Source: Massilia sp. MS-15
GTDB taxonomy: Bacteria > Pseudomonadota > Gammaproteobacteria > Burkholderiales > Burkholderiaceae_D
Assembly (NCBI RefSeq): GCF_020176695.1
Contig: NZ_JAIWIA010000007.1
Coordinates: forward strand, 186,001-250,000
DNA length: 64,000 bases
Reading direction: 5' to 3'
The translations under genes and the position numbers were made by a program. The first letter of the stretch is position 1. Every line of letters begins with the position of its first letter. The notes below the pieces were generated by a model. That model was given only the letters and a program-made list of their open reading frames with translations. It made no database searches and had not been told where the DNA came from. Shown here in pieces: positions 1 to 38,464 of the stretch.

Positions 1-525
1 GTCGTCATCAGCATCGCGCTGGTGGCCCTGCTGCACGTGCTGGGGCTGACCAGCCGCCACAGCGCCGATCCGCTGCGCCGCAAGCAGGCGCTGATGCTGG
101 CCGAGGCCATGCTCGAAGAAGTGCAGCTGGCCCGCTTCACCTATTGCGATCCGTCCTCCGACAACGCCGATACGGCGGAAAGCAGCGCCGACTGCACGAT
201 ACCCGAAGCCTTCGGGCGCAACGCGCCGGAGCCGGCCGGCAGCCGTCCCTACGACAACATCAACGACTACGTGGCGGCCGCGGGCACGCCCACGCTGGCC
301 TTCAACAACGCCGCCGGCCGCCTGGCCGACGTCAACGGCACGCCGCTCGACCTGGCCGGCTACACGGTGCGCCTGACGATCACGCCCGCGGCCCTGGGCG
401 GCATCGCCGCTGGCGGCAACAGCGCCGATGCCGAGGTGCTGCGCATCCGCGTCACCGTCGAGTTCGACGGGGACAGCCTGGCGCTGGACGGCTACCGCAC
501 GCGCCACGCGCCGAACATGCTATGA
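1..525 (+). CDS. mshD: MSHA minor pilin MshD, 5' end outside the window
   Basis: The reading frame is open from base 1 and ends in TGA, so the visible 174 residues lack the start and the prepilin cleavage motif. The first visible residues are the end of a hydrophobic helix, followed by a positively charged stretch and an Ala/Met-rich segment with LAEAMLEEV, as in MshD/PilV-type minor pseudopilins. It overlaps mshO by ATGA. Identity rests mainly on its place before mshO-mshP-mshQ, which is the conserved order. In the family this is a low-abundance pilus subunit processed by the prepilin peptidase and inserted in the inner membrane before assembly. Confidence 0.75.
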   Translation, partial: VVISIALVALLHVLGLTSRHSADPLRRKQALMLAEAMLEEVQLARFTYCDPSSDNADTAESSADCTIPEAFGRNAPEPAGSRPYDNINDYVAAAGTPTLAFNNAAGRLADVNGTPLDLAGYTVRLTITPAALGGIAAGGNSADAEVLRIRVTVEFDGDSLALDGYRTRHAPNML

Positions 526-33016: not shown

Positions 33017-34009
33017 TTATTCCTCATCGCTGCGCAGGCGCCCGTAGATGCCGGCCTCGGGCGCGGGCAGGGCGGCGGCCAGCGCCACGGCTTCCCCGAC
33101 GCCGGCCTCGGCCAGCACCCGCAGCTTGGCCAGGCGCTCGCCTGCGTGCAGGGCCTGGGCCAGCGGCCCGGCTTCGGCACGGCCGGCGTGCAGGATCGCC
33201 GCGCCCACCGGCGGCGGAAATTCCCAGGAGGCCGCGATGCGCGCCGACAGGGTGCGCGCGTGCTCGAGCAGCGCGCCCGCGAAGCGTTCGGATTGCGGCA
33301 GCGCCGCGCTGCCGGCCAGCTGGTCCACCAGGCGCAGCGCCACCACCAGCCCCACGTTCTGCATCAGCCCCGCCAGGTAGGCCTCGAAGGGATTGGCCTT
33401 GAGGGCGGGCGCGGCCAGTGCGGCCGCCTGCGCGCACTTCTCGGACTGGCTCCACAGGCGGGGCGCGGCCTGGCGCGCCAGGCGTCCGGTCTGGGCGCTG
33501 ATCACCGGTCGGAAAGCGACCCGCGCCAGCAGCATGCGCAGGCCATTCTGGCCCAGCAGCATGAGCGCGCCCTCGATGTTGGTGACGCGGGTCGTGGCGC
33601 GGTAATAGGGGCTGTTGACTTCGCGGATGACTTCGGCCACCAGGGTCACGTCCTGGCCTACCTGGCGCGCCAGCTCGCCGGCCGACATTGCCTCGTCGCG
33701 CAGGCTGCGCAGCAGTTGCGGGACGACGGCGGGCACGCGCGGCACCAGGTCGGCGGCGGCTTCCGGCTGGCGCGCCAGCCGCGCCAGCTCGTCGAGAACC
33801 AGCTCCTCCGGCATGCTGCCGGCGTGGGCCACGCCCGCGGTCAGCCAGCGGTAGCAGGCCAGGTCGAGGTCGAAGGGAGCGACTTCGGGCATGGCCGCAG
33901 GCGCGGGCACGGCGTGCGCGTCGCCGGCTGCGGCCGGGGACTGTAGGGCGCAGGGCGCCTCGTCGGGATGCGCATTTCCGCCGAACAGGCGGGCAAGCCA
34001 ATTTTTCAT
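33017..34009 (-). CDS. HDOD-domain signalling protein
   Basis: A 330-residue HDOD protein. After a short variable N-terminus with a basic start (KNWLARLFGGNAHPDE) there is an HDOD domain from about residue 80 to 300, with VPAVVPQLLRSLRDEAMSAGELARQVGQD and VNSPYYRA.TRVTNIEGALMLLG, the core HDOD pattern. Catalytic HD residues are absent, as normal for HDOD, so it is a regulator rather than a phosphodiesterase. It lies near a c-di-GMP gene cluster on the same strand, which may be its context. Confidence 0.85.
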   Translation of the reverse strand: MKNWLARLFGGNAHPDEAPCALQSPAAAGDAHAVPAPAAMPEVAPFDLDLACYRWLTAGVAHAGSMPEELVLDELARLARQPEAAADLVPRVPAVVPQLLRSLRDEAMSAGELARQVGQDVTLVAEVIREVNSPYYRATTRVTNIEGALMLLGQNGLRMLLARVAFRPVISAQTGRLARQAAPRLWSQSEKCAQAAALAAPALKANPFEAYLAGLMQNVGLVVALRLVDQLAGSAALPQSERFAGALLEHARTLSARIAASWEFPPPVGAAILHAGRAEAGPLAQALHAGERLAKLRVLAEAGVGEAVALAAALPAPEAGIYGRLRSDEE

Positions 34010-34906: not shown

Positions 34907-36679
34907 TCAGGCCGCCATGGGCTGCTGCCCGGCCAGCCAGGCCAGCAGTTCCGGCGCCGGCAGTGGCCGGCTATAGAAATAGCCCTGTCCCTTGGCGCAG
35001 CACTGGGCCCGCACCACCTCCGCCTGGGACGCGGTCTCGATGCCTTCGGCCACCGTCTTCATGCCCAGGCTCTGCGCCACCTTGACCGTGGCTTCGATCA
35101 GCACCCGGTGGTGGTGGCTGGTATCGGCCTGGCTCACGAAGGAGCGGTCGATCTTGACCGTGTCCACCGGCAGCAGGTGCAGGCTGGACAGCGAGGAATA
35201 GCCGGTGCCAAAGTCGTCCAGCGCGAGCTGGATGCCGAGCGCCTTCAGCTCGTGCAGGCGCTGCTGGATGTCCTGGTCCTGGGCCGCCAGGCTTTCGGTG
35301 ACTTCCAGCTGCAGCTGGCCGGGCGGCATGCCGGTGGCCTGCAGCACGCGCCGCACGCCGTCGATCCACCCTGGCTGGCCGAGCTGGGCGCGCGACAGGT
35401 TGACCGCGATCACGCGCGGCGCGGCGCCGCCCAGGCGCGCCTGCCAGTCCATGAAATCGCGGCAGGAGCGCTCCAGCACGAAGTCGCCCACCGCGCCGAT
35501 CAGGCCGCACTCCTCGGCGACGCCGATGAACTCGATCGGCGGCACGATGCCGCGCTGCGGATGGCGCCAGCGCACCAGGGCCTCGACCCCGGCGGCATGG
35601 TCGGTGCCGCCGTCGGGCAGCAGGCCGACCACGGGCTGGTACACCACGAACAGCTGCTCCTCGACCAGCGCCTGGCGCAGTTCGGCCTCAATGTCGGCGC
35701 GGCGCGCGGCGCGTTCGCGCATGCTGCTGTCGAACACCACCTGGCGCGCGCCGCCGGCGCGCTTGGCTTCGACCATGGCGATGCCGGCATCGCGCAGGAT
35801 CTCGTCGGCGTCGCGCAGGCCGCCATGCAGGGCGTCGGCGCCCCAGGTCAGGCCCAGGCTGATGTTGCACACGACGTCGTGGCCTTGCACACGGTAGGAC
35901 CGTCCCAGCGCGTCGAGGAGGCGCGCCGCGACCCGCTCGGCGTCTTCACGCGCGCGCAGGCCGTCGAGCACCACCACGAATTCGTCGCCGCCGACGCGCG
36001 CGGCCAGCTGGCTGCTGGCAGTGCCGGCGGCGGGGCCGATGCGGTCGCTCGGCGGACGCAGCGCGCCGCGGATGCGGTCGGCCACCTGCACCAGCAGGGC
36101 GTCGCCCACCGCCTGGCCGAGGTTGTCGTTGACCTGGCGGAAGCGGTCGCAGTTCATGAACAGCACCGCGAAGTCGGAGGTCGCATGCGGCCCCGCCACC
36201 AGGTGCTGGAGCTGCTCGCGCACCGCTTCGCGATTCGGCATCCGGGTCAGCGCGTCGGTGCGCGCGGCATTGCGCAGGCGGCGCAGCAGGGTCTCCTGCT
36301 CGCGCTGCACCTCGAGCGTGGCGTCGCCGACCACCGCCATCAGGCGCTGGGCGTCCAGCTTCATCAGGCTGATACCGAGTACCTGCGGACTGCCGGGCGC
36401 GGTCAGCGCCGGCGGCAGCGGTGCGCGCAGGCCTTCGCAGATCACGCCGGAACTGTCGGCGAAACCGGCCGCCAGCTGCGGCAACTGGGGCGCGACCGGG
36501 GCCAGCACGGCGTACAGGTTCTCGAGACCGGTATCGCAGGCGAGCGGCATCAGGAGGCTGGAAGCCATCGGGTTGAGCATCTCGACCGTGCCATCGGGCG
36601 CGATCTGCGCCAGGCCGATCGGTGCGCGGTACAGGAATTGCACCAGCGTTTCGTAGGCATCGCTCGGGTCAGGCAACAT
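34907..36679 (-). CDS. GGDEF-EAL cyclic-di-GMP protein with N-terminal PAS-like region
   Basis: A 590-residue protein. Residues about 8-120 form a PAS-like domain that is a close relative of the N-terminus of the neighbouring PAS-GGDEF protein (LVQFLYRAPIGLAQIAPDGTVEMLNP). The GGDEF motif (residues 230-234, RVGGDEF) is intact, with no RxxD inhibitory site. The EAL domain starts at E366-A367-L368 and keeps the metal and substrate motifs: EALVRWRHP, VNLSRAQL, EVTES, LDDFGTGYSSL, KIDRSFV, EGIET and the closing QGYFYSRPLP. It may be a true c-di-GMP phosphodiesterase or bifunctional. Its start overlaps the stop of the upstream GGDEF gene by 11 bases. Confidence 0.92.
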   Translation of the reverse strand: MLPDPSDAYETLVQFLYRAPIGLAQIAPDGTVEMLNPMASSLLMPLACDTGLENLYAVLAPVAPQLPQLAAGFADSSGVICEGLRAPLPPALTAPGSPQVLGISLMKLDAQRLMAVVGDATLEVQREQETLLRRLRNAARTDALTRMPNREAVREQLQHLVAGPHATSDFAVLFMNCDRFRQVNDNLGQAVGDALLVQVADRIRGALRPPSDRIGPAAGTASSQLAARVGGDEFVVVLDGLRAREDAERVAARLLDALGRSYRVQGHDVVCNISLGLTWGADALHGGLRDADEILRDAGIAMVEAKRAGGARQVVFDSSMRERAARRADIEAELRQALVEEQLFVVYQPVVGLLPDGGTDHAAGVEALVRWRHPQRGIVPPIEFIGVAEECGLIGAVGDFVLERSCRDFMDWQARLGGAAPRVIAVNLSRAQLGQPGWIDGVRRVLQATGMPPGQLQLEVTESLAAQDQDIQQRLHELKALGIQLALDDFGTGYSSLSSLHLLPVDTVKIDRSFVSQADTSHHHRVLIEATVKVAQSLGMKTVAEGIETASQAEVVRAQCCAKGQGYFYSRPLPAPELLAWLAGQQPMAA

Positions 36680-38039
36680 GCTCGGCACCTTCGTTTCCTT
36701 CGGACTGGTGGACGGGGGCGCCGGCAAGTGCCGGGCGCCAGCTTTCTACCCGATTGCGGCCGCCGCGCTTGGCCGCGTACAGGGCTTGGTCGGCGCGCTT
36801 GAGCAGCAGGTCGATGCCGCCTTCGCCATCGTCCAGGCAGGCCACGCCGGCGCTGACCGTGCAGGCGATACGCACGCCGTCGACCTCGGCTGCCTGGGCC
36901 GCCACCGCGTCGCGCAGGCGTTCCGCCACCAGCGCCGCTTGCGCCAGCCCGGTGGACGGCAGCAGCACCGCGAATTCCTCGCCGCCGACGCGGGCCACCA
37001 CGTCCACTTCGCGGAAGGTGCTCAGCAGCAGCCCGGCCAGGTGGCGCAGCACGGCGTCGCCGGCCGGATGGCCGTGGCGGTCGTTGATGGTTTTGAAATG
37101 GTCGGCGTCGAAGGCGATCACCGCGGTCGGGCGCGCCAGGGCGCAGCTGCGTTCCAGTTCGCGCCCGGCCGCCTCGAAGAAGGCGCGCCGGTTCGCGAGG
37201 CCGGTGAGGTGGTCGGCGAAGGCTTCCTGGCGCCGCTGTTCGCTGGCGCCGCGCTGCTCGCTGATGTCGCGCAGGATGAGGCAATAGGCCGGGCCTTCCG
37301 GCACCGCGCCGCTGGGCGGCTCGCGTTCCGGCAGCGGCGCGATCAGGGCGCTGCCCCAGAAGGCGCTGCCATCGGCGCGCACGCGCCGCCCTTCGTCCAG
37401 GCTCCAGCCGTCGCGTCCGGCTTCGCGCAGGCGGTCGAGCAGGTGTTCGGGCGTCATGCCATCGGGGGGATAGAAGATCGAATACGGGCGTCCCACCGCG
37501 TCCTGGCCGTGACCCGTGACGCGCGCGATACTGGGGTTCCACGCGGCGATCGCGCCCTGGGCGTCGAGGCCGACCAGGGCATAGTCGGCGATGCCGGTCA
37601 GGATCGCGTTCAGCCAGGCCTCGTTCTGGCGCAGCTGGCGCTCGCGCCGCACCTGCAGCGTGACGTCCTCCAGCACCGCCATCAGGCGCCCGGCGTCGAG
37701 CTTGAGCAGGGTGAGGGACAGGATCTGCGGCTGTTTCCGGGCGTTGCCGCCGGCATGCAGGTGCAGGTGCAGGCCGTCGCAGATCTTGCCGGCCGGGCGC
37801 TCGTAGCGCGCACACAGGTGGCGCAGATCGGGCGCCACGTCCTGCAGCAGGGTCAGCAGGTTGTCGAGGCCGCCGTCGCGCGAGAGCGGCATCAGGAGCT
37901 GGGCCGCGATCGGGTTGATCATGCCGATGGCGCCGTCGGCGTCGGCCTGCACCAGGCCAACCGGCGCCAGGTACAGGAACTGGATCAGCGCTTCGTGCTC
38001 GGCGCGCAGCTCGGCGAAGTCCTCGGGCGGGTGGCGCAT
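36669..38039 (-). CDS. Diguanylate cyclase with two PAS domains
   Basis: A 456-residue protein. PAS 1 covers about residues 12-120 and PAS 2 about 145-265 (ILTGIADYALVGLDAQGAIAAWNPS, then a PAC-like ending). The GGDEF domain has an intact active site GGEEF (residues 352-356) and an upstream RxxD inhibitory site (REVD), so it should make c-di-GMP with product feedback. It starts 32 bp after the PYP-like gene and its stop overlaps the GGDEF-EAL gene, so the three are one transcript and partly coupled. The signal sensed by its own PAS domains is unknown. Confidence 0.93.
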   Translation of the reverse strand: MRHPPEDFAELRAEHEALIQFLYLAPVGLVQADADGAIGMINPIAAQLLMPLSRDGGLDNLLTLLQDVAPDLRHLCARYERPAGKICDGLHLHLHAGGNARKQPQILSLTLLKLDAGRLMAVLEDVTLQVRRERQLRQNEAWLNAILTGIADYALVGLDAQGAIAAWNPSIARVTGHGQDAVGRPYSIFYPPDGMTPEHLLDRLREAGRDGWSLDEGRRVRADGSAFWGSALIAPLPEREPPSGAVPEGPAYCLILRDISEQRGASEQRRQEAFADHLTGLANRRAFFEAAGRELERSCALARPTAVIAFDADHFKTINDRHGHPAGDAVLRHLAGLLLSTFREVDVVARVGGEEFAVLLPSTGLAQAALVAERLRDAVAAQAAEVDGVRIACTVSAGVACLDDGEGGIDLLLKRADQALYAAKRGGRNRVESWRPALAGAPVHQSEGNEGAEHVA

Positions 38040-38071
38040 GCGGGTCCCTGGCAGTGGATCGGTGCCGCGGT

Positions 38072-38464
38072 TCAGCGCGGCTGGCGCTGCACCAGCACGT
38101 AGCGGAACACGCCGCCCGGCGCGGCCAGCAGGCGCAGGGCCACCTTGACAGGGCGCATGCGCAGGGTCAGCACATAGTCGATGGTGGCATCCAGCATGCT
38201 GCCGTCTTCCTGGGCATCCTCGAAACGCTGGGCCACCATGAAGTTGTTCATGCATGGCGCCACATTGGTAAACAGGGGCTGGCCCAGCACCCGCTGCGGC
38301 GACAGGCCGGCCGCCTGCGATTCGAAGGCGTTGTAGCGCTGCACCATCGTATCGGCGTCGAAGGCGATCACGCCGAAGTCTAGCCCGTCGAGCTGTTCCG
38401 GCGAACAGCGGTCCAGCTCCTCGGCCAGGTCGGGGCGCGAGAAGCTCAGCGTAGATACATTCAT
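38072..38464 (-). CDS. Photoactive-yellow-protein-like PAS protein
   Basis: A 130-residue protein aligning nearly without gaps to photoactive yellow protein (125 residues) as I recall that sequence. Shared: QLDGLDFG near the N-terminus, YNA-E (Tyr44 and Glu48 for PYP Tyr42 and Glu46), P-Q-V-G, the VAPC motif with the chromophore cysteine (Cys71 for Cys69), Tyr97 and Met103 (Tyr94 and Met100) and PVKV near the end. Thr50 and Arg52 of PYP are Ala and Leu here, which usually shifts kinetics rather than abolishing binding. PYP binds p-coumaric acid and reads blue light. Placed at the head of a c-di-GMP gene pair, it likely supplies the input. p-Coumaroyl supply genes are not in the window. Confidence 0.85.
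   Translation of the reverse strand: MNVSTLSFSRPDLAEELDRCSPEQLDGLDFGVIAFDADTMVQRYNAFESQAAGLSPQRVLGQPLFTNVAPCMNNFMVAQRFEDAQEDGSMLDATIDYVLTLRMRPVKVALRLLAAPGGVFRYVLVQRQPR

Follow-up and report, generated by a model that had tools for sequence, protein, structure and literature searches.

A PAS domain at the front of two cyclic di-GMP enzymes accompanies clade C-type photoactive yellow protein and is a candidate receiver of its signal in Massilia

Results

A photoactive yellow protein gene heads a three-gene operon

The 64,000-nucleotide stretch analyzed here (the window; positions 186,001 to 250,000 of contig NZ_JAIWIA010000007.1, Massilia sp. MS-15) carries on its minus strand an operon that joins a homologue of photoactive yellow protein (PYP) to two enzymes of cyclic di-GMP (c-di-GMP) turnover. 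The PYP homologue, which is of the clade C type, is encoded at 38072..38464 (ATG 38464, TGA 38072; 130 amino acids). Its stop codon is separated by 32 bp from the start of a diguanylate cyclase gene at 36669..38039 (ATG 38039, TGA 36669; 456 amino acids), the product of which has the domain order N-PAS-PAS-GGDEF, where N-PAS denotes the first PAS domain of either enzyme. The end of the cyclase gene overlaps by 11 bp (36669..36679, ATGttgccTGA) with a gene for an N-PAS-GGDEF-EAL protein at 34907..36679 (ATG 36679, stop ending at 34907; 590 amino acids). This is the layout that the initial annotation of the window had described, and each of its elements was recovered.

A Pfam search identified the GGDEF domain of the cyclase (E=3.2e-43) and a PAS domain at residues 153-207, which corresponds to the second PAS, as well as the EAL (E=2.8e-69) and GGDEF (E=1.1e-28) domains of the third gene product. 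The first PAS domain was not detected in either enzyme by this search; it was assigned in the cyclase from an AlphaFold2 (AF2) model and in the third protein from its 50% identity to the cyclase domain. Reading the sequences by eye, we take the cyclase to contain a GGEEF motif with an RxxD motif five residues upstream, and the third protein to have an intact GGDEF, no visible RxxD, and the catalytic motifs of an EAL domain.

The 130-residue protein is a PYP homologue of the clade C type

The NCBIfam model photo_yellow (TIGR02373) matches residues 6-127 of the 130-residue protein with an E-value of 1.6e-23 and a score of 83.2 bits, which does not reach the equivalog cut-off of 143.05 bits. We did not use this cut-off to exclude the protein because, among the PYP homologues that BLAST recovers, the model covers about 20% (PMC9664959). 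A sequence search of the PDB returned 33 distinct matches at E<=0.01, all of which are PYPs, the PYP domain of Ppr, or PYP-derived tags (FAST, nanoFAST). Alignment to these entries equates Y44, E48, C71, Y97, and M103 of the window protein with Y42, E46, C69, Y94, and M100 of PYP, as had been proposed from sequence inspection, and A52 and L54 with T50 and R52. Greater similarity to unrelated PAS proteins with a non-conserved cysteine had been named as the outcome that would speak against PYP; the search instead came out for PYP, and Tyr42, Glu46, and Cys69 are conserved in the window and in 98/98 related loci. These loci are 98 places with a clade C-type PYP in 94 other genomes, the window's own copy being outside the count.

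PYPs have been divided into clades A-C. Clade C is found mostly in Proteobacteria, especially Burkholderiales, has lost F92, F96, and W119 of the Halorhodospira halophila protein while keeping M100, and is frequently encoded next to GGDEF genes; no member had been characterized in depth (PMC9664959). The window PYP has Ile, Leu, and Tyr at the positions of F92, F96, and W119, retains the Met, and is directly followed by a GGDEF gene. The clade C label used here refers to these residues and this neighbor. Ala and Leu at positions 50 and 52, which the initial annotation had singled out as possibly altering the photocycle, are the consensus of the PYP family (PMC12826048) and occur in 93/98 and 97/98 loci, respectively, and the idea that they are unusual was rejected on this basis.

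Profiles of the window-type PYPs and of a divergent PYP type, described below, match each other at 99.7%. Window positions 99-102, 110-113, 74, 77, 78, and 124, and further 25, 34, 35, 52, 54, 92, and 95, are among those with residues that hardly vary in clade C but do not occur in the divergent PYPs. From the alignment to PYP, positions 99-102 and 110-113 should fall in strands of the PYP scaffold. Several plasmid-borne PYPs of the clade C type carry the annotation 'phosphonate transporter', an error that has been noted for PYPs before (PMC9664959).

Both enzymes open with the same predicted PAS domain

N-PAS copy 1 comprises residues 15-135 of the cyclase (37635..37997, minus strand) and copy 2 lies at the N-terminus of the GGDEF-EAL protein (36290..36655, minus strand). 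The two are 50% identical over 121 residues. None of 39 N-PAS members matched a Pfam model named PAS at E<=0.1. Five other Pfam families matched one member each, the best with an E-value of 0.022, and PF24820 (Diguanyl_cycl_sensor) was among these five (E 0.063). An AF2 model built from 44 sequences (pLDDT 88.7, pTM 0.78) gave 42 PDB matches at E<=0.001 in Foldseek, including DosP, FixL, NifL, Aer2, and PYP, with a best TMq of 0.68. N-PAS is thus predicted to adopt a PAS fold. We considered whether N-PAS is a duplicated PYP and rejected this, as kinship between the two profiles was undetectable (hhalign probability 1.4%). No cysteine is invariant across the 39 aligned members.

The best Foldseek matches include the heme PAS domains of DosP and FixL. 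They favor an alternative in which N-PAS is an independent sensor, with its own ligand or responding to redox state or oxygen, or a dimerization domain; PYP would then act elsewhere or on c-di-GMP indirectly, and the two would co-occur through travel as one block. We regard this alternative as unlikely, for reasons that emerge from the distribution and context of the domain. The account that we prefer is that N-PAS is the candidate PYP-receiving domain, a proposal that draws on the alignment, the AF2 model, and the co-occurrence with PYP.

N-PAS accompanies clade C-type PYP

Among 392 genomes of the family, PYP was found in 95, N-PAS in 96, and both in 95. Every PYP-positive genome therefore has N-PAS (95/95), versus 1/297 PYP-negative genomes of the same family. 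At the level of single loci, where domains were called from BLAST matches to pieces of the window at E<=1e-4, the gene after PYP opens with N-PAS at 97/98 places, and the 98th is interrupted by a contig end. The median distance from the PYP stop to the N-PAS match is 33 nt (97 loci). When named genomes were scanned with a single N-PAS peptide pattern, 120 stretches were confirmed and 79 distinct loci retained; PYP lies upstream in 77 of the 79, and the remaining two start at a contig end.

N-PAS was present in 11 of 399 genomes in a survey of the order, six of them from the family already counted and five new. These are the same 11 genomes that have PYP matches below 1e-30. PYP was found in 12 genomes, namely these 11 and one (G513) with only divergent PYPs. 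Two of the five genomes from outside the family, G551 and G772, have a completeness of 64-68%, and their N-PAS frames are interrupted in some cases. A survey of the class (143 genomes) recovered PYP from the window's own genome and from two others, which have the divergent type; N-PAS occurred in the own genome and as one weak match of 20 bits (G893).

The association extends to plasmids. Of 72,556 plasmid records, 11 contain N-PAS, eight of which are alphaproteobacterial by genus, and 13 contain PYP; PYP is adjacent in 11/11 of the N-PAS records. In the eight N-PAS plasmid stretches that were opened, from seven records, PYP directly precedes N-PAS-GGDEF. One of the two PYP records without N-PAS is a Niveispirillum plasmid, with a PYP of 31% identity. 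The other is Comamonadaceae plasmid CP099603, on which the PYP gene faces a gene for a 1368-residue PAS protein; past the latter lie genes for a BLUF protein and a diguanylate cyclase. On the Indioceanicola profundi plasmid NZ_CP030128, a single cluster holds pyp, pcl, an aromatic ammonia-lyase gene, a clade C-type PYP, and N-PAS-GGDEF, and so unites genes for chromophore supply and for output. No open frame fuses PYP to N-PAS among the PYP loci checked for N-PAS and the 79 named loci, and the idea that such a fusion exists somewhere was rejected for the loci examined.

N-PAS is constant while the output varies

The genes behind PYP differ considerably in what follows N-PAS. At 66 of the 98 loci the arrangement is that of the window, N-PAS-GGDEF and then N-PAS-GGDEF-EAL. 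Nine loci have N-PAS-GGDEF only, six have N-PAS-GGDEF-EAL only, and three have a fusion, N-PAS-N-PAS-GGDEF-EAL. Seven have, upstream of N-PAS-GGDEF-EAL, an N-PAS gene without a GGDEF match (frames were read for four of the seven, and Pfam was run on one, L043). At two loci the third gene lacks N-PAS, four have other forms, in one case an N-PAS frame on its own where the contig ends, and one is cut. In four genomes from two other families of the order, HisKA-HATPase kinases carry N-PAS behind PYP, and two of these, G419 and G667, have the gene order PYP, N-PAS-GGDEF-EAL, N-PAS-kinase. Unlike N-PAS, the second PAS of the cyclase is not always present: Pfam detected none in the third gene of the window or in any of the four kinases.

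These patterns bear on the alternative that N-PAS senses a signal of its own. The operon is tight and in some species plasmid-borne, so that linkage alone would give co-occurrence of PYP and N-PAS. Travel as a linked block nevertheless leaves unexplained why N-PAS alone is constant, and N-PAS persists where the output is a histidine kinase, has been lost, or is fused. N-PAS genes located apart from PYP, found in genomes that still bear PYP (G055, G097, G551), also count against this alternative. In G096 a second N-PAS-GGDEF gene lies away from PYP and has a short PYP remnant (29 bits, in a frame of some 58 codons) immediately before it. One N-PAS-GGDEF-EAL gene of G074 (L278) begins at a contig end, which may hide a preceding PYP.

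PYP distances correlate most, by a weak margin, with those of the N-PAS domains

We compared PYP with the downstream domains across operon pairs, having left out beforehand those with EAL in the first gene. Of 160 pairs, 112 remained once identical pairs were discarded, and 90 of these had all five parts. Mean identities in these 90 non-identical operons are 66% for PYP, 64% for N-PAS, 61% for GGDEF, and 58% for both the second PAS and the second N-PAS, so that N-PAS is the best conserved of the three cyclase parts compared. In partial correlations of distances with PYP, N-PAS gives 0.21 (95% bootstrap interval 0.12-0.31), the second N-PAS 0.29 (0.15-0.42), GGDEF 0.15 (0.05-0.25), and the second PAS 0.09 (-0.04-0.23).

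A second, divergent PYP lies beside a CoA ligase gene

The genome that contains the window has a second pyp gene on another contig (C1:46637). Its product is 31% identical to the window PYP and scores 190.7 bits against TIGR02373, above the cut-off. The gene is directly followed by a 4-coumarate-CoA ligase gene, the pair spanning C1:46637-48233 (L080). This ligase gene (C1:47067-48233), of the p-coumaroyl-CoA ligase (pCL) type, scores 321.9-322.3 bits against TIGR02372, just below the cut-off of 334.7, and is the sole strong pCL-type match in the genome; the next best place scores 60 bits. The ligase that had been suggested as a marker of chromophore supply is hence present, and the candidate explanation that pCL is missing was rejected. 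The companion search for a tyrosine ammonia-lyase turned up two lyases. One is above the histidine ammonia-lyase cut-offs, and the other is a 133-residue fragment at a contig end with an ambiguous substrate, which may or may not supply p-coumarate. Uptake of p-coumarate from plant matter is possible.

Divergent PYPs occur at 18 places. At the 16 that are separate from a clade C operon, including that of the own genome, a ligase adjoins, and N-PAS was found near none (0/16). N-PAS therefore goes with clade C PYP and not with PYP generally. The other two (L117 and L119, in G053 and G012) have a divergent pyp and a clade C pyp operon side by side, pointing apart, and their stretches include N-PAS because of this adjacency. 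In G513, four divergent PYP genes lie on the same strand within about 3.5 kb, with a 4-coumarate-CoA-ligase-like gene among them (L290). A ligase is also near 49/98 clade C PYP loci, with 44 of the 55 matches upstream on the opposite strand.

A further alternative is that the window protein is no longer a p-coumarate photoreceptor, owing to a lack of chromophore supply, and serves as a constitutive or redox subunit. Its score below the TIGR02373 cut-off, the replacement of F92, F96, and W119 of the H. halophila protein by Ile, Leu, and Tyr, the location of the only pCL-type gene on another contig, and the absence of a proven tyrosine ammonia-lyase are consistent with this. The same three substitutions are normal for clade C (PMC9664959), however, and Y42, E46, and C69 are kept in 98/98 loci. 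The genome does have a pCL behind its second pyp, and pCL-type genes (E<=1e-40) occur in 18/35 clade C genomes versus 0/12 chosen PYP-less genomes. We consider loss of photoreceptor function very improbable.

Flanking region

Between 34700 and 38800, a promoter scan found no promoter-like site and one terminator-like site, the latter on the opposite strand and with a score below the shuffle mean. Downstream of the operon, the gene at 33017-34009 (minus strand) encodes what we take to be an HDOD-like protein.

Discussion

The operon is a further member of a published kind. Single-domain PYPs of clade C in Burkholderiales, with M100 kept, F92/F96/W119 lost, and a GGDEF gene adjacent, have been described (PMC9664959), and a GGDEF gene lies downstream in 29/113 pyp operons, often with EAL and with biofilm proposed as the output (PMC12826048). 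A separate PYP near a cyclase, which had been presented as unusual, is accordingly not so, and that idea was rejected. Light control of c-di-GMP held up as the best reading of the operon, although the proposal had already been published; neither the operon nor this reading is new because the pairing of clade C PYP with GGDEF is in the literature. In Idiomarina loihiensis, where a separate PYP likewise lies beside a GGDEF gene, blue light reduces biofilm (cited in PMC9664959 and PMC12826048); that PYP differs in belonging to clade A. The Ppd fusions (PYP-phytochrome-GGDEF-EAL; PMC9664959) have the same PYP input and c-di-GMP output, but in a single chain with a phytochrome. For Rc-PYP of Rhodobacter capsulatus, a separate partner, the PYP-binding protein, is reported.

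While the initial annotation correctly recognized the PYP, the operon, and the link from light to c-di-GMP, it overlooked the first domain common to both enzymes, the way this domain tracks PYP, and the second pyp with its CoA ligase. The sections of PMC9664959 consulted do not describe the shared front domain or its co-occurrence, and the outputs named in those of PMC12826048 are GGDEF, EAL, and HisK, with no receiving domain named. A literature search on PYP plus Massilia found no publication. As far as the searched literature shows, the persistence of N-PAS beside clade C PYP while the output changes had not been described before.

We propose that the operon is a blue-light input for c-di-GMP and that lit PYP signals through the N-PAS of both enzymes, a reading that we hold to be probable. 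The product of the ligase gene behind the second pyp would supply p-coumaroyl-CoA, from which Cys71 of the PYP would be loaded with p-coumarate, and blue light would drive the PYP into a partly unfolded signaling state. In this state its β-sheet face, where the clade C-specific positions 99-102 and 110-113 should lie, may contact the N-PAS at the front of each downstream enzyme; we propose the strand face because PAS domains often pair. Such contact would shift the cyclase and the N-PAS-GGDEF-EAL enzyme together, whichever the direction of the switch, and thereby set the c-di-GMP level, probably governing biofilm versus motility. On this account clade C PYP would have in N-PAS a receiver of its own that can be carried from one output to another.

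Several observations weigh against this reading. The histidine kinase outputs are limited to four genomes, in one of which (G551) the PYP match spans only model residues 29-126. Co-occurrence of N-PAS and PYP is in part the inheritance of a single operon. One family genome, G072, encodes an N-PAS cyclase but shows no match to PYP, as would be expected of an independent sensor; no PYP remnant was found in its N-PAS-GGDEF stretch (L282), and a gene that we take to be TetR-like lies upstream at the usual pyp place. The PYP of plasmid CP099603 is of the clade C type and 69% identical to that of the window, and has no N-PAS nearby. The coevolution signal points in the direction of N-PAS as the partner, but with overlapping intervals and weak differences (80-95% of bootstraps), PYP-N-PAS exceeding PYP-GGDEF in 80% and PYP-second-PAS in 91%. 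On the side of chromophore supply, 17/35 clade C genomes have no pCL-type ligase at E<=1e-40, and a tyrosine ammonia-lyase is not proven in the own genome.

In a wider form of the proposal, to which we give somewhat less credence while still leaning towards it, N-PAS would be a portable PAS module dedicated to receiving the signal of single-domain PYP. One free photoreceptor could then drive a cyclase, a cyclase-phosphodiesterase, and a histidine kinase in the same cell, and N-PAS would be the general signaling partner of clade C PYP across Beta- and Alphaproteobacteria.

PYP is among the best studied photoreceptors. The signaling partner of the H. halophila protein is still stated to be unknown (PMC11003764, PMC13250908). 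The present analysis names a candidate partner for clade C PYP, the region to purify, and a control, the divergent PYP of the same genome. N-PAS stays constant through changes of output, and the question of the unknown partner therefore becomes testable with two small proteins. Optogenetic tools based on c-di-GMP or on kinases could also gain a separate light input from the N-PAS/PYP pair.

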